Part shown: piece after piece, positions 56,293 through 63,437 of the stretch | Layout: every line of letters starts with the position of its first letter | Numbering within the stretch: the first letter of the stretch is position 1 | Assembly: GCF_001282685.1 (NCBI RefSeq) | Contig: NZ_LN875035.1 | Coordinates: 1,220,250-1,284,249 of the forward strand | DNA length: 64,000 nucleotides | Source of the DNA: Niameybacter massiliensis | Lineage (GTDB): Bacteria > Bacillota > Clostridia > Lachnospirales > Cellulosilyticaceae | Direction: 5' to 3' | Position numbers and translations under genes: made by a program | The notes under the pieces: generated by a model | The model's input: only the letters and a program-made list of their open reading frames with translations | Told to the model about the DNA's origin: nothing | The model's database searches: none

Positions 56293-57225
56293 TTAACGCT
56301 CTTCTCTAAAGTAATTTTCTCCAAGTGCTTTTGGTCCTAAGTTCTGTCCACCTGAACGAATAGACCCTATCACAAGGAATAAAATAGTCACAACATAAGG
56401 TAACATATCTACAAAATATTGATTAATTTGAATGCCTGCTGCTTGAAGACGTAAACCTAAAATATCTAATGCACCAAATAAAATGGCTCCAAAGATGGCT
56501 TTGAGTGGATGCCATCCAATGAAGATAACAAGTGCTACTGCAATCCATCCACGTCCTGCTGTAATATTTTGTTGCCATGCAGGTACATACACTAATGAAA
56601 GAAATGCACCAGATAAACCACATAACATCCCACCTATTACAAGGTTAAGATATTTATAAAGTTCTACACGAATTCCTACAGCATCTGCTGCCGCTGGACT
56701 CTCTCCAATCATACGTGCATTAAGTCCTACTTTTGTATATTTATAATAAACAAAAAGAATAATCCCTATAATATAAGCAAGATAAATAAAGATACTTTGA
56801 TTAAAGAAAGCTGCCCCTATAATAGGTATTTCACTTAGCAGTGGGATAGCTTTTGGTGCTAATACTGCCTTAACAGGCTCAGGTACAATTTGTCCTACCA
56901 GATTTTGTCCTAAAAAGTTAGCAAAACCTGTTCCAAATATAGTAAGGGTAAGTCCTGTTACAACTTGGTTAGCACGTAAAGATACAGTTAAAACAGCATA
57001 AATCAATGCACCAAAACCGCCTGCTAACATAGCTCCTAGTAATGCAAGCCATGCATTTTGAGTTGTTACCCCTACATTAAACCCGACTACTGCTCCCATA
57101 ACCATCATACCTTCTACACCCAGGTTGATGTGTCCTACTTTTTCACTCATTACTCCGCCAAGTGTGGCAAGTAAAAGGGGTGTTCCTGCTATAACTGCTG
57201 CTATTAAAAATGACTCTATTCCCAT
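56293..57225 (-). CDS. nupQ: BMP-type nucleoside ABC transporter permease (second)
   Basis: A 310-residue permease with about eight membrane segments of the RbsC/BPD_transp_2 family. EKVGHINLGVEGMMVMGAV and GESPAAADAVGIRVELYKY match YufQ/NupQ. It pairs with the other permease to make the membrane channel of a nucleoside importer. Its start codon abuts the stop of nupP. Substrate assigned from the operon's guanine riboswitch and the family. Confidence 0.88.
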   Translation of the reverse strand: MGIESFLIAAVIAGTPLLLATLGGVMSEKVGHINLGVEGMMVMGAVVGFNVGVTTQNAWLALLGAMLAGGFGALIYAVLTVSLRANQVVTGLTLTIFGTGFANFLGQNLVGQIVPEPVKAVLAPKAIPLLSEIPIIGAAFFNQSIFIYLAYIIGIILFVYYKYTKVGLNARMIGESPAAADAVGIRVELYKYLNLVIGGMLCGLSGAFLSLVYVPAWQQNITAGRGWIAVALVIFIGWHPLKAIFGAILFGALDILGLRLQAAGIQINQYFVDMLPYVVTILFLVIGSIRSGGQNLGPKALGENYFREER

Positions 57226-58296
57226 TTACATTGCCTCCTTTGCAACTTCTTTTTCAAAATGTACTTTATAGTTAATAAAGAATTGTGAACCAAGTACACA
57301 GAATAATACTACACCTTGGATAATCTCTGCCGCTGCTTGTGGAATTTGATAAGCTGTCTGAATATAACTTGCGCCTTGTGTTAAGATTGCAAAGAAAACA
57401 GATACGACTACAATCCATGGGCTCTTAAGATTAGCAAGCCATGCAATAATAATAGCTGTATACCCTACTCCTGCTGTTAAATCCATTGTAAGTGTGTTGT
57501 TAACTGCAGATGCTTGAATCATCCCTGTTAAACCACAAATTCCTCCACTTAAAAGCATAGCAAAAATCATAATCTTTCTTACATTCATCCCTGCATACTT
57601 AGCTGTATTTTCACTTTCTCCAAGTACCTGAATTTCATAACCTGCCTTTGTATGATTGATCAATATGTGAATACCGATAACTAATACAATGGCAATAATC
57701 CATCCCATATGTATACCAAAAACTTTTGGCAAAATAGCATTATCTGTAAAGTTAGCAATCTTAGGGAATCCCATAGCTGCTGGATCTTTCCATGGTCCAT
57801 ATTGTAAGTAGACAATCCACTTAAGTGCAATATAGTTCATCATTAATGTAACAATGGTCTCATTTGTTCCAAATTTAGCTTTTAACATTGCTGGTATAAG
57901 TGCCCATATGCCTCCACCAATCATCCCAAGGATAATCATAAGTGGGATAAGAATAATGGCTGGTAAATCCTTAAAATATAGTGCTGCAAATGTAGCTGCA
58001 AAACCACCCATTAAAATTTGTCCTTCTACTCCGATATTCCAGAATTTCATACGGAAGGCTACTGCAATCCCTACTGCTGTAATAATAAGAGGAATGGCTG
58101 TAATAACAGTTTGTCTGAAACGGTGAGCTGATCCAAAGCATCCCTCTAACATAGAAGCATACACTTCAAAAGGATTATGTCCCATAACACCTATAAATAC
58201 GCTGGTTAAAATGATAGCTAGTACAATAGCTAATCCTGTAATTGCTACTTTCTTCTTTGCAGAAATAGCGCCGTTTTTAGATACCCTTATTTGCAT
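57226..58296 (-). CDS. nupP: BMP-type nucleoside ABC transporter permease (first)
   Basis: A 356-residue permease with eight to ten membrane segments. MKFWNIGVEGQILMGGFAA and GESENTAKYAGMNVRKIM are the family's channel and coupling-loop motifs (YufP/NupP). It overlaps the end of the ATPase gene by 20 bases, so the two are translationally coupled. Confidence 0.88.
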   Translation of the reverse strand: MQIRVSKNGAISAKKKVAITGLAIVLAIILTSVFIGVMGHNPFEVYASMLEGCFGSAHRFRQTVITAIPLIITAVGIAVAFRMKFWNIGVEGQILMGGFAATFAALYFKDLPAIILIPLMIILGMIGGGIWALIPAMLKAKFGTNETIVTLMMNYIALKWIVYLQYGPWKDPAAMGFPKIANFTDNAILPKVFGIHMGWIIAIVLVIGIHILINHTKAGYEIQVLGESENTAKYAGMNVRKIMIFAMLLSGGICGLTGMIQASAVNNTLTMDLTAGVGYTAIIIAWLANLKSPWIVVVSVFFAILTQGASYIQTAYQIPQAAAEIIQGVVLFCVLGSQFFINYKVHFEKEVAKEAM

Positions 58297-59791
58297 GTTG
58301 TCCTCCCATCATTAACCCAAGCTGTTCTTTTGTTACACCATCTGCTTCTACAAGCCCTGTCATCTCTCCATCACACATAACCATAATACGGTCACAAAGT
58401 TGCATCAATACATCTAGGTCTTCTCCAACAAAGAGTACTGCTACCCCTTTTTCCTTTTGCTCATTAATCAAGTCATAAATTTGATGAGTAGACCCTACAT
58501 CTAGTCCCCTTACAGCATAAGCTGTTATAAGCACACGTGGATTGGCATCAATTTCACGTCCTAAAAGAACCTTTTGTATATTCCCTCCTGAAAGCATTTT
58601 TACAGGATGATTTATATTTGGTGTTTTAATACTTAACTTCTCAACCATTGCCTCTGCTTTGGCTTTGATTCCTTTTTTATCTAAGAATAATCCTTTTTGC
58701 GTATGATACTCTTTTAAAAGTAGATTATCTGCTGTTCCCATGCTACCTACTAAGCCCATTCCTAATCGGTCTTCTGGGATAAAGCTCATACTAATTCCTT
58801 TTTCATAAATGGTTCTTGGTTTAAGACCCGTTACCTCTTCACCTTCAAAAACTAATTTCCCACTTTCTAAAGTCTTAAGCCCTACTAATGCTTCACAAAG
58901 CTCCTTTTGTCCACTTCCAGCAACACCTGCTACACCTAGGATTTCTCCACTTCTAAGGCTAAATGAAACTTTATTAAGTAATGGCACACCTTCTTTGTCT
59001 TTAACCGTTACATCTAAAATGTCATAGACAGACTTAGGATCATGAACTGGCTTACGTTCAATACTTAATGCTTCACTATGACCAACCATTAACTGAGTCA
59101 GATGTACTGTATTTGTATCTTTTATATCTACTGTTTTGGCTACCGTACCTTTTCTAAGAACAGTTACTACGTCACATAGTGCCATAACTTCATTTAATTT
59201 ATGGGTAATAATAATGATACTTTTTCCATCTTGTTTCATAAGCCTTACAATATCAAATAACTTCTCCACTTCTTGAGGTGTAAGTACTGCTGTAGGCTCA
59301 TCTAAAATAAGAATGTCACACCCTCTATAAAGAACTTTAATAATTTCTAACATCTGCTTTTCACTAACAGACATCTCACTTACTTTTTTATCTAAATCAA
59401 TAGTTAGGCCATATTTTTTACAAAGTGTTTTTACACAATCTGCTTCATGACTTCCTTTGGTAAAGAACTTACCACTTCCTGCAATAATGTTCTCTTTTGC
59501 TGTAAAAGATTCTACTAATTTAAAATGTTGATGTACCATGCCAATGCCTTTAGCAATAGCACTTTTAGGAGAACTAAAATGAACTTTTTCAGAACGCACA
59601 AAAATGAACCCGCTATCAGGACTATAAATTCCTGATAGCATGTTCATTAATGTACTTTTTCCTGCGCCATTTTCTCCTAGTAGGGCATGGATTTCTCCCT
59701 TTTTAAGTGTAAGGTCAACGCCTTCATTAGCAATTACCTCACCAAAACGTTTTGTTATGTTTTTTAATTGTACCACTACTGTTTGATCCAT
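58277..59791 (-). CDS. nupO: BMP-type nucleoside ABC transporter ATPase (two nucleotide-binding domains)
   Basis: A 504-residue fused ATPase. Domain 1 has Walker A GENGAGKS (39-46), signature MSVSEKQML and Walker B LILDEPTAVL. Domain 2 has GVAGSGQKE, signature LSGGNIQKV and ITAYAVRGLDVGS where a Walker B with DE would stand, so the second site lacks the catalytic glutamate, as is common in this sugar/nucleoside subfamily. It powers nupPQ. Confidence 0.9.
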   Translation of the reverse strand: MDQTVVVQLKNITKRFGEVIANEGVDLTLKKGEIHALLGENGAGKSTLMNMLSGIYSPDSGFIFVRSEKVHFSSPKSAIAKGIGMVHQHFKLVESFTAKENIIAGSGKFFTKGSHEADCVKTLCKKYGLTIDLDKKVSEMSVSEKQMLEIIKVLYRGCDILILDEPTAVLTPQEVEKLFDIVRLMKQDGKSIIIITHKLNEVMALCDVVTVLRKGTVAKTVDIKDTNTVHLTQLMVGHSEALSIERKPVHDPKSVYDILDVTVKDKEGVPLLNKVSFSLRSGEILGVAGVAGSGQKELCEALVGLKTLESGKLVFEGEEVTGLKPRTIYEKGISMSFIPEDRLGMGLVGSMGTADNLLLKEYHTQKGLFLDKKGIKAKAEAMVEKLSIKTPNINHPVKMLSGGNIQKVLLGREIDANPRVLITAYAVRGLDVGSTHQIYDLINEQKEKGVAVLFVGEDLDVLMQLCDRIMVMCDGEMTGLVEADGVTKEQLGLMMGGQHANKGI

Positions 59792-59811: not shown

Positions 59812-60954
59812 TTAGTTAATATCGCCTACTACACCTTCAACAAACCAATCATTTGAAAGTTGGTCTTCATCACTTAATACAGAGCCTTCTGGTACTCTTT
59901 CATTCCCTGCTTGGTCTTTAATTGGACCTTGGAAAGTATTAAATGTACCTGCTTTCATCTCTGCTCTTCTTGCTTCAATGATTTCTGCTATACCCTCTTT
60001 TGCATTTGCTGTAAGAGGAGAAATATCTACGATACCTGCATCAATACCTTCCCAGTAAGCACTAGGAGTGAATGTTCCATCAATAACAGACTGTACTGCT
60101 TCTACATAATAAGGACCCCAGTTCCAAATTGCACTAACAAGATTTGCATTTGGAGCAATTCCACTCATATCTTGGTGATATCCGATTGACCATACACCTT
60201 TTTCTTCTGCTGCTTGTTGTGCCCCTGCTGCATTTTGATGTTGAGCAAGTACGTCACATCCTTGGTCGATTAAAGCACTTCCAGCTTCTTTTTCTTTTGC
60301 TGGGTCATACCATGTGTTTGTCCAAGATACTTTTACAACTGCATCTGGATTAACAGCTTTTACCCCAAGTGTAAAAGCATTGATTCCACGAATAACTTCT
60401 GGAATTGGCATCGCTGCAACGTATCCAATTTGGTTCGTCTCAGTTTGAAGTCCTGCTACCATACCTGTAATGTATCTTGCATCTTCTACACGGCCAAAGT
60501 AATTTGCCATATTTTCTGTTGTTTTATATCCTGAACAATGGAAGAATGTTACTTCTGGGAATTCTTTTGAAAGTTTTTCTATGTAATCCATATAACCAAA
60601 TGATACTGCAAAAATAACATTGCATCCTTGGTCAATCATATCTCTAGCTACTTTTTCTACTTCTTGTGTCTCTGGTACTGATTCTTTATAAACTGTTTGT
60701 ACACCAAGTTGTTCTTCTAAATAAAGTCTACCTTTATCATGAGATTGAACAAATCCACCATCTGCTACTGGTGCTGAATAAATAAATCCTGCTTTGATAT
60801 CTGCATTTGCAGTTGTTTGATTGTTATCACTTTTTTCTTCTGTTTTAGGAGCATCTGTAGCTTGTACCGCTGTACCTCCTGTTGAACAACCTGTTAATAG
60901 CATAGCAAGTGATAATGTTCCAGCTACTAATAATTTAAAACTTTTTTTAAACAT
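59812..60954 (-). CDS. nupN: BMP-family substrate-binding lipoprotein (nucleoside)
   Basis: A 380-residue lipoprotein: signal peptide with lipobox LLTGC, a Thr/Ala-rich linker, then a BMP/PnrA-type two-lobe domain (DIKAGFIYSAPVADGGF, VIFAVSFGYMDYI, GPIKDQAGNERVP). PnrA relatives bind purine nucleosides. It is the first gene behind the guanine riboswitch, and the most abundant subunit is usually encoded first. Ribosome site GGAAGAGGAA. Confidence 0.92.
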   Translation of the reverse strand: MFKKSFKLLVAGTLSLAMLLTGCSTGGTAVQATDAPKTEEKSDNNQTTANADIKAGFIYSAPVADGGFVQSHDKGRLYLEEQLGVQTVYKESVPETQEVEKVARDMIDQGCNVIFAVSFGYMDYIEKLSKEFPEVTFFHCSGYKTTENMANYFGRVEDARYITGMVAGLQTETNQIGYVAAMPIPEVIRGINAFTLGVKAVNPDAVVKVSWTNTWYDPAKEKEAGSALIDQGCDVLAQHQNAAGAQQAAEEKGVWSIGYHQDMSGIAPNANLVSAIWNWGPYYVEAVQSVIDGTFTPSAYWEGIDAGIVDISPLTANAKEGIAEIIEARRAEMKAGTFNTFQGPIKDQAGNERVPEGSVLSDEDQLSNDWFVEGVVGDIN

Positions 60955-60995: not shown

Positions 60996-61017
60996 ACTCT
61001 TTGCATAAGCAAAGAGT
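60996..61017 (-). terminator. Riboswitch-controlled terminator before nupN
   Basis: On the minus strand ACTCTTTGC-TTAT-GCAAAGAGT followed by seven T, placed in the leader ~40 bases before the first gene. Its left foot overlaps UUACUC (61014-61019), which can pair with the riboswitch P1 3' strand instead. Confidence 0.92.
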
Positions 61018-61022
61018 AATCT

Positions 61023-61110
61023 TCCTAACACTTCTAAATTCACTTCCAAAATAACTGATTTAATTATGCTAAATCTGTTTAGTCGAAATATGCCTTTAGA
61101 AATATTAGGA
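61023..61110 (-). promoter_or_regulatory. Clamp helix of the riboswitch expression platform
   Basis: UCCUAAUAUUUCUAAA (61095-61110) pairs over 16 positions, two of them G-U, with UUUAGAAGUGUUAGGA (61023-61038). The helix brings the aptamer P1 3' strand next to the terminator foot. Confidence 0.75.
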
Positions 61111-61115
61111 TAGTT

Positions 61116-61186
61116 TACTCATAGCCCAGACTCTTTATGGTAGTCGGTAGAAACGCTTAGACCTTATCTCCAAGCTTATATAAGTA
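61116..61186 (-). ncRNA. Guanine-class purine riboswitch aptamer
   Basis: On the minus strand: P1 UACUUAUA/UAUGAGUA (one G-U); P2 CUUGGA/UCUAAG with loop GAUAAGG; junction GUUUCUACC, identical to known purine aptamers; P3 with loop CCAUAAA and one bulge; J3/1 GGCUAUG. The discriminating residue (position 74 in the standard numbering) is C, which selects guanine/hypoxanthine over adenine. It lies in the leader of the nupNOPQ operon, so guanine should shut off purine nucleoside uptake. Confidence 0.92.
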
Positions 61187-61207: not shown

Positions 61208-61225
61208 AATTCGAACGTTCGAATT
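61208..61225. promoter_or_regulatory. 18-bp perfect palindrome at the transcription start of the nup operon
   Basis: AATTCGAACGTTCGAATT lies immediately downstream of the -10 box, covering about +1 to +18. Its position suits a repressor. It partly resembles two face-to-face PurBoxes, but two to three positions differ in each. Confidence 0.55.
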
Positions 61226-61232
61226 TAAATTC

Positions 61233-61261
61233 ATTATAATCGTACGACAATAAACTTTCAA
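61233..61261 (-). promoter_or_regulatory. Promoter of the nup operon
   Basis: TTGAAA (61256-61261), exactly 17 bases, TATAAT (61233-61238) on the minus strand, about 50 bases before the aptamer. Confidence 0.82.
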
Positions 61262-61358: not shown

Positions 61359-62024
61359 TTAATAATTTTCTTTTCTTACTTCAAAGTAGCTTCTTGGATG
61401 TGCACATACTGGACAAATTTCTGGTGCTTTATTTCCCACTACAAGATGCCCGCAATTACGGCATTCCCACATAGCCGTTTCACCTTTTTCAAATACTTGT
61501 TGCATCTCTACATTATGTAAAAGTGCACGGTATCTTTCTTCATGAGCTTTTTCAATTTTACCAACTGCTCTAAACTTATTTGCTAGTTCTACAAATCCCT
61601 CTATCTCAGCTTCTTTTGCAAATGTCTCATACATATCTGTCCATTCATAATTTTCACCATCTGCTGCAGCTTTAAGATTTTCTGCTGTACTACTAATACC
61701 CTTTAATTCTTTTAACCACATTTTTGCATGTTCTTTTTCATTATCTGCTGTGTGACTAAAAATACCTGCTATTTGTTCAAAACCTTCCTTCTTAGCAACG
61801 CTTGCAAAATATGTATATTTATTTCTTGCTTGACTTTCTCCTGCAAAAGCAGCTAACAAATTTTGTTCTGTTTTTGTTCCACTATAAGCATTTACTTTTG
61901 GAGGCTCTATTTTTTCTTCAACCTTCTCAAATTTATCTACTCCTACATGACAAATTGGACACTCCTCTGGAGCACTACTTCCTTCATGAATATAATTACA
62001 TACAACACATCTAAACTTTGACAT
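61359..62024 (-). CDS. rbr: Internal start: stand-alone rubrerythrin from the same frame
   Basis: The ATG at 62022-62024 follows AAAGGAGG by eight bases, the best ribosome site of the operon, and the 221-residue product is a normal full-length rubrerythrin with N- and C-terminal rubredoxin domains ([10 protein letters not shown] and [10 protein letters not shown]). It should reduce hydrogen peroxide with electrons from rubredoxin or NADH enzymes. It probably is made both alone and as part of the long fusion. Confidence 0.7.
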
Positions 62025-63437
62025 TACTATATCCTCCTTTTTATTTTCAGATTTATGATTAAGGTTTATTCCTAAATCTGCACTACGGTCTTTATAAGCT
62101 GTATGAAGCATTTGTTCTGCAAGCTCACTTAATGGTTTTCCATAAAATGTCTCATATAACTTTTGAATCTCTTCATTTTCATGGCTTGCTCTTTTTCTCA
62201 TATATTGATCACGCTTATAGAGTCCATCTACTCTTTTCTGTCTGAGCTCATTACCTTTATAAGCTCTATCCTTAGGCTGACCACCACCACCAATACATCC
62301 TCCTGGGCACGTCATTACTTCAATAAAATGGTATTGTTTTTCATTCGTTTTTAATTGCTCTATTAATTTACGTACATTACCTGTTCCATAAATGACAGCA
62401 AGATTAAGAGTATGCTCACCTATCGTTAACGTTGCTTCTTTCATCTCCTCCATCCCCCGAACAGGCTTTAACTCATATAATGTTTGAGGTGCCTTTTCTT
62501 TTAAGATAAACTCATATGCTGTACGAAGCGCTGCTTCCATAACACCACCTGTATTACCAAAGATCACTCCAGCCCCACTTGCTTCTCCCATTAAGTTATC
62601 ATACTGAGATTCTTCTAATTGATTAAATTCAATGTTTTCTTCTTTTGCCCATTCTGCAAGCTCTCTTGTTGTTATCACATAATCCATATCTCGCATATCA
62701 TCTATCCCATGATATCTTCCAGCTGCATTCATCTCTTTTCTACGAATTTCAAATTTTTTAGCTGTACATGGTGTCACTGCAACATTTATAATACGCTTCG
62801 AATCAATATCCATCTTCTTACTAAAGTAAGTTTTTATAGTTGGACCTTGCATGCCAATGGGACTTTTAGCAGTAGAAAGATGAGGTAAAATATCTGGATA
62901 ATAAAGTTCAGCAAACTCTACCCATGCAGGGCAGCAACTTGTAAATTGAGGTAATGGTTTATTGCCTGTTTTAATACGTTCAAGGAGTTCAGTGGCTTCT
63001 TCCATTATTGTAAGATCTGCACTAAAGTTTGTATCTAAAACATAGTCAGCGCCTAAAGTCCTTAGCATAGCAACCATTTGCCCCTGTACAAAACTTCCAT
63101 CTTCCAGTCCAAACTCTTCGCCAAGTGCAACACGAACCGATGGAGATGTGCTAAAGATGACTATTTTATCTGGATCGTTAATTGTCTCTTTTACCTTAGT
63201 ATATTCTTTTTTTTCCGTAATAGACTCAACAGGGCATACATTAGCACACTGACCACAATGAATACATATTGCTCTATCTGATGTATTGGCTAAATCATAG
63301 GTTCCTAGAACTTCAATGTAGTCTTTACAAATATTTTTACACATACCACATTTAATACACTTTTCTTCATTTCTGATAATTGAAGGATTTTCTTCTTCAA
63401 TGGGTACTCTTACTTCTAAAGATAAATGTTTACTCAT
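61359..63437 (-). CDS. [FeFe]-hydrogenase-like protein fused in frame to rubrerythrin
   Basis: A 692-residue open frame. Residues 1-~75 are a 2x[4Fe-4S] ferredoxin (Cys27, 30, 33, 37 and 58, 61, 64, 68). Residues ~90-390 are an H-cluster domain with TSCCPAW (167-173), TPCTAKKFE (222-230; the usual Met of MPC is Thr) and [14 protein letters not shown] (375-388). Residues 472-692 are a complete rubrerythrin: N-terminal rubredoxin knuckle, ferritin-like diiron domain ([24 protein letters not shown]) and C-terminal rubredoxin. The junction codons KKEDIV contain a perfect AAAGGAGG, eight bases before Met472. It may be one fused peroxide-defence/hydrogen enzyme, two overlapping products, or a lost stop codon. 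Confidence 0.85.

Follow-up and report, generated by a model that had tools for sequence, protein, structure and literature searches.

A leader within the window (the whole stretch of Niameybacter massiliensis DNA analysed here, 64,000 nucleotides) very probably carries a guanine-sensing transcriptional OFF riboswitch, as judged from its sequence and from folding models. It belongs to a purine-uptake BMP-ABC operon on the minus strand, in which a predicted promoter, a purine aptamer, a 99-nt spacer, a terminator and a lipoprotein gene follow one another. The aptamer family, the helices and their mutual exclusion, the order of folding, the conservation of the expression platform and the operon context are established by sequence and computation. 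The leader comprises the following elements:

61233..61261, minus strand: predicted sigma-70-type promoter, TTGAAA-17-TATAAT (11/12 matches; consensus match only)
61210..61223, no strand assigned: perfect palindrome TTCGAACGTTCGAA, situated where transcription is expected to start, read from the sequence
61116..61186, minus strand: guanine-type purine aptamer (RF00167 and parsing)
61186-61179/61123-61116, minus strand: aptamer P1
61178, 61153 and 61149, minus strand: aptamer U22, U47 and U51
61175-61169/61161-61155, minus strand: aptamer P2
61168-61162, minus strand: aptamer L2, GAUAAGG
61154-61146, minus strand: aptamer J2/3
61145-61141/61133-61129, minus strand: aptamer P3, GACUA/GAGUC
61140-61134, minus strand: aptamer L3, CCAUAAA
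61128-61125, minus strand: aptamer J3/1, UGGG
61124, minus strand: aptamer C74
61115..61120, minus strand: antiterminator 5' strand GAGUAA, overlapping the P1 3' strand (folding; compensated in relatives)
61095..61110, minus strand: 5' strand of a 16-bp clamp helix (P 0.98-1.00 in all states once transcribed)
61023..61038, minus strand: 3' strand of the 16-bp clamp helix (folding)
61014..61019, minus strand: antiterminator 3' strand UUACUC, overlapping the terminator 5' arm (folding; relatives)
60996..61017, minus strand: intrinsic terminator stem-loop ACUCUUUGC-UUAU-GCAAAGAGU, then UUUUUUUAUUUU (9 bp, -12.1 kcal/mol)

The leader folds more stably than its dinucleotide shuffles (z -6.25), a stability that 0/200 shuffles reach. 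Sequence and folding agree with the initial annotation on every coordinate it had assigned to P1, GAGUAA/UUACUC, the 16-bp clamp and the terminator. The terminator, which had been placed some 100 bases beyond the aptamer, indeed follows the 99-nt spacer as a 9-bp stem with a tract of seven U (UUUUUUU).

The aptamer matches RF00167 at 61203-61102 on the minus strand over the full model (1-102), with 67.0 bits (E 1.5e-09) against a gathering score of 37 bits, and it is the sole Rfam match within the 64-kb window. This covariance match, together with C74 at 61124, bears out the earlier reading of a purine aptamer with C at the ligand-pairing position, for which the Rfam purine model had been proposed as a check. 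The core is kept (U22, U47, U51 and C74, and the kissing bases G37-G38 of L2 and C60-C61 of L3), the joining regions read UAA (J1/2) and UUUCUAC (J2/3), and all residues known to contact guanine are retained. C74, the mark of the guanine subclass, stands in place of U74 and rules out the adenine subclass. It has been established that 2'-dG-I and 2'-dG-II aptamers carry C at position 51 (58 in 2'-dG-I) (PMC8872408); U51 at 61149 rules both out. Xanthine-II, which PMC9295807 defines by U51G and a two-nt J2/3 insertion, is likewise ruled out because U51 is kept instead of G51. These alternative patterns are excluded by the standard U22, U47, U51, C74 and kissing-loop bases. The ligand is inferred to be guanine. 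The base of P3 is irregular: the usual form, which is no strict requirement, has a regular P3 with a two-nucleotide J3/1 (A73 and C74) beneath it, but the window has UGGG in place of GA before C74, with G73 and an unpaired U in P3, and an A.G pair on top of P3. Two C-G pairs are predicted here, C53 and C54 pairing with GG; a single U is then bulged and G73 is left over. Owing to this irregularity, affinity or specificity could differ from those of a standard guanine aptamer. Covariance-model alignments of 126 distinct aptamers, a sample biased to xpt-BMP leaders, have C at position 74 in 124 cases and A or G at position 73 in 81 and 39 cases, respectively, so the window J3/1 represents natural variation inside the family and not a ground for exclusion.

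Partition functions were computed on transcripts growing from 61226, with nearest-neighbour energies that ignore tertiary structure, polymerase and kinetics. In these ensembles the mean probability of P1 is 0.96-0.97 until 61018; that of GAGUAA/UUACUC reaches 0.96 at 61014 and 0.99 through to 61000, with P1 near 0; and once the stem is complete at 60996, the terminator has a probability of 0.97 and P1 is back. The unliganded RNA thus favours the antiterminator over about 16 nt of elongation, and P1, if given a ligand bonus of -6 to -9 kcal/mol, stays closed through most of this interval, decision point included. A helix that excludes P1 as well as the terminator and forms ahead of the latter, as in the OFF platform of the yxjA type, is therefore present in silico, and growing-transcript folding and the relatives described below both support the proposed OFF logic with mutually exclusive P1, antiterminator and terminator. 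Since the full-length RNA at equilibrium favours the terminated state with or without ligand, the switch would have to be under kinetic control, as reported for yxjA and other riboswitches. According to the proposed mechanism, the aptamer would fold first with P1 closed, and the polymerase, on copying the spacer, would allow the 16-bp clamp hairpin to form and bring UUACUC beside GAGUAA. In the absence of ligand, GAGUAA/UUACUC would invade P1 and occupy four bases at the start of the terminator stem, giving read-through; with guanine bound, P1 would resist invasion, UUACUC would stay free, and the terminator would form and turn the operon off. The clamp would be present in both states; it would close a loop of about 90 nt and so let a 6-bp antiterminator beat P1.

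The contribution of the clamp was estimated by forbidding helices in ViennaRNA through soft penalties. At 61008 the ensemble free energy of the antiterminator minus the P1 state goes from -4.70 kcal/mol, clamp included, to +3.41 kcal/mol in its absence, and removal of the clamp pairs brings the probability of the antiterminator to 0.00; when the spacer is replaced by dinucleotide shuffles, this probability exceeds 0.5 in only 14/150. The idea that the clamp favours neither state is contradicted by this shift of about 8 kcal/mol towards the antiterminator in the model; the clamp is more aptly seen as the apical portion of the antiterminator hairpin, persisting in the off state. The leader offers a clean, testable case in which a very short antiterminator can compete with P1 thanks to a hairpin that is present in both states.

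Within the order, 295 genomes supplied BMP homologues, as did the GTDB contigs. A family-aptamer model finds a purine aptamer in 59 of the 110 locus records, in which some genomes are counted twice, nearly always upstream of xpt or BMP. Two genomes (records L015 and L019 for one, L017 and L020 for the other) have two purine riboswitches about 1.6 kb apart in a single locus; in L017 and L020 each riboswitch precedes a BMP-like lipoprotein gene of its own. The platforms were compared in 47 leaders with a recognisable terminator, nearly all of them from these records, plus one family aptamer. In most of them the P1 3' strand pairs with the terminator foot in the same register through altered sequences, such as GAGUUC/GAACUC, GAGUAUG/UAUACUC, GAAUGU/ACAUUC, GGGUGUUUA/UAAACUCCC and GAGGAA/UUCCUC. 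Taken alone, the GAGUAA/UUACUC match is unremarkable (14.0, where shuffled arms across the full set give 10.4 +/- 2.6); the pairing becomes significant when followed across relatives, where strands score 12.96 with their own partners against 10.13 +/- 0.46 with permuted ones (25 distinct strands), a value attained in 0/20000 permutations, which kinship among the loci makes a guide and not a probability. The order P1, antiterminator, terminator is modelled in 37 of the 47 leaders, and the spacers of most relatives fold into one bridging hairpin, that of the window lying at the stable end of the range (z -6.5). The platform had been regarded as unusual, a view that these relatives and the published yxjA and lysC switches do not sustain. 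No riboswitch is seen on the contigs of the four BMP homologues that are closest among those retrievable (L052-L055, 63-69% identity), so the window leader has no close comparison.

The genes of the operon, all on the minus strand, are the following:

59812..60954, minus strand: BMP/PnrA-like substrate-binding lipoprotein (PF02608, 4.1e-70) with an AtzT-like purine pocket (F68, S118, F119, E186, W215, H239, N241)
58277..59791, minus strand: ABC ATPase with two ABC domains (domain matches)
57226..58296, minus strand: ABC permease, BPD_transp_2 (domain match)
56293..57225, minus strand: ABC permease, BPD_transp_2 (domain match)

NCBIfam names of the "B6 ABC transporter" kind were rejected for this operon, as all matches fall far below the curated cut-offs. 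The lipoprotein has the BMP domain of the PnrA/BMP nucleoside transporters, but its closest members are not the nucleoside-binding ones: the nearest solved structures are AtzT (6pi5, 9.9e-86) and Brucella 3s99 (9.9e-83), and BmpD and TmpC, which bind nucleosides, match far less well (4.3e-10 and 1.4e-08). AtzT co-purified with guanine (KD 0.11 uM), nucleosides are absent among the compounds listed as tested with it, and adenine was modelled in 3s99 (PMC6834077). The AtzT guanine contacts Ser97, Phe98, Glu165, Trp194 and Asn220 are identical in the lipoprotein (S118, F119, E186, W215 and N241), and Tyr45 and Asn218 are replaced by F68 and H239; among 82 homologues S118, E186 and W215 do not vary. 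Of the 58 records where BMP follows within reach, 50 have a predicted xpt gene, identified through its N-terminal motif, between the aptamer and BMP, and the three such genes scanned all exceed the cut-offs for xanthine phosphoribosyltransferase; xpt is missing from the window operon and from a few other records. Because the nearest structures are AtzT and 3s99 and xpt adjoins BMP in relatives, import of nucleobases appears likelier than that of nucleosides. Of the earlier assignment to purine nucleosides, the purine part is strongly supported and the nucleoside part is the less likely one. The guanine switch, xpt and the guanine-type pocket argue that a large clostridial BMP clade imports purine bases, which would correct the common nucleoside annotation. 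The start of the BMP gene is overlapped by a frame of 14 codons (MEGRGICLKKVLNY; about 60968-60924, minus strand) that has a GAGG ribosome-binding site of its own, and translational coupling between the two is possible. Elsewhere in the window, a single frame of 692 aa (61359-63437, minus strand) fuses the large- and small-subunit domains of an FeFe hydrogenase with rubredoxin-like and rubrerythrin domains.

The recurring G73 and expanded junction pose a small question on purine aptamer specificity. It is unlikely that the window holds a purine-fold aptamer whose expanded P3/P1 junction alters ligand preference (for instance, a more pronounced selectivity for guanine, as in guanine-II, or a response to some other oxopurine or to a G nucleoside) on the same OFF platform: the ligand-contacting residues are all of the guanine-aptamer type, the presence of U51 rules out the patterns known for 2'-dG-I/II (C51) and xanthine-II (G51), and RF00167 is still the best Rfam family for the variant aptamers tested. 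On the side of such a change, PMC9295807 describes guanine-II aptamers in which J2/3 is enlarged by one nt and J3/1 also carries an insertion, U22, U51 and C74 being conserved; many of the sampled aptamers with G73 precede xpt-BMP operons. Compared with that verbal description, the window aptamer fits if C53/C54 are unpaired, in which case J2/3 is one nt and J3/1 three nt longer than standard, but not if they pair with GG, and the predicted C53-G and C54-G pairs would largely restore the standard junction. A subgroup of aptamers with UUUCUACA-AACUA...UAGUU-ACAGG-C, found upstream of xpt-BMP operons (before xpt at L028/L062, L029, L036/L069, L037, L041, L044, L058, L071 and L078), also fits that verbal description; by sequence they are possibly guanine-II-like, yet with OFF platforms. 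Other purine aptamers lie directly before an FAD-dependent oxidoreductase-like gene (L014, L018, L116:1455-1535, L171, L175, L176 and L178), several with an expanded J3/1 (GUAGG-C); the one such gene scanned has no NCBIfam match. It is unlikely that the purine aptamers combining G73 with an enlarged P3/P1 junction, the window's included, constitute, among xpt-BMP and related leaders, a variant that recurs in clostridia and has a ligand selectivity unlike that of standard guanine aptamers.

It is even less probable that a guanine switch is present while the main control is translational or exerted by PurR at the promoter, with a minor part for the terminator. The genome encodes a Bacillus-type PurR (331 bits), and TTCGAACGTTCGAA, a candidate PurR (PurBox-like) operator or else a 5' hairpin of the leader, lies at the predicted transcription start; the PurBox core is CGAA/TTCG (PMC8789054), and three close relatives without the riboswitch (L052-L054) have PurBox-like CGAAC sites before the promoter. 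However, a strong terminator with its seven-U tract stands between aptamer and gene, and the exclusion between antiterminator and P1 is precise and conserved. TTCGAACGTTCGAA has its only exact copy here, and its single-mismatch copies genome-wide are no commoner than those of a reversed control, for which reason it was rejected as evidence of a genome-wide operator. The palindrome and the encoded PurR make dual control by riboswitch and PurR possible, and such control would not remove the riboswitch. Least credible of all is a non-functional, degenerate riboswitch left after the loss of xpt from the operon. The operon does lack the xpt usual elsewhere, P3 has its unpaired U and A.G top pair, and the aptamer scores lowest in bits among the genome's four purine riboswitches, three of which lie elsewhere. 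Against degeneration, the platform helices are all intact, the 16-bp clamp is mismatch-free, the spacer, judged against shuffles, is more stable than any other in the set and the core residues are all kept. The guanine OFF switch is well formed and probably functional.

The window switch is ordinary in kind, its mechanism being already described in yxjA and common to dozens of relatives. It shares with the clostridial xpt-BMP-ABC guanine riboswitches the aptamer class, the register of P1, antiterminator and terminator, the intervening hairpin and the BMP-ABC operon; unlike them, it has no xpt, its clamp is at the stable end and its J3/1 UGGG is absent from the others. With guanine-II as described in PMC9295807 it shares U22, U51 and C74 and, if C53/C54 are unpaired, additions in J2/3 and J3/1, but guanine-II is described as an ON switch in Paenibacillus and the window platform is OFF. 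In the yxjA (nupG) guanine riboswitch of Bacillus subtilis, a central helix competes with P1 and the terminator, and breaking its pairs locks the switch off (PMC9756952). Both have a purine aptamer, a transporter gene, OFF logic, a competing central helix and an extra platform stem (P4 in yxjA); in contrast, the window transporter is an ABC system and not the NupG permease, and its antiterminator proper, at just 6 bp, depends on a distinct 16-bp clamp without interruptions. In this last respect it resembles the lysC riboswitch, which has another aptamer and ligand but in which a persistent hairpin, present in the bound and unbound states, promotes the antiterminator (reviewed in PMC10907184).
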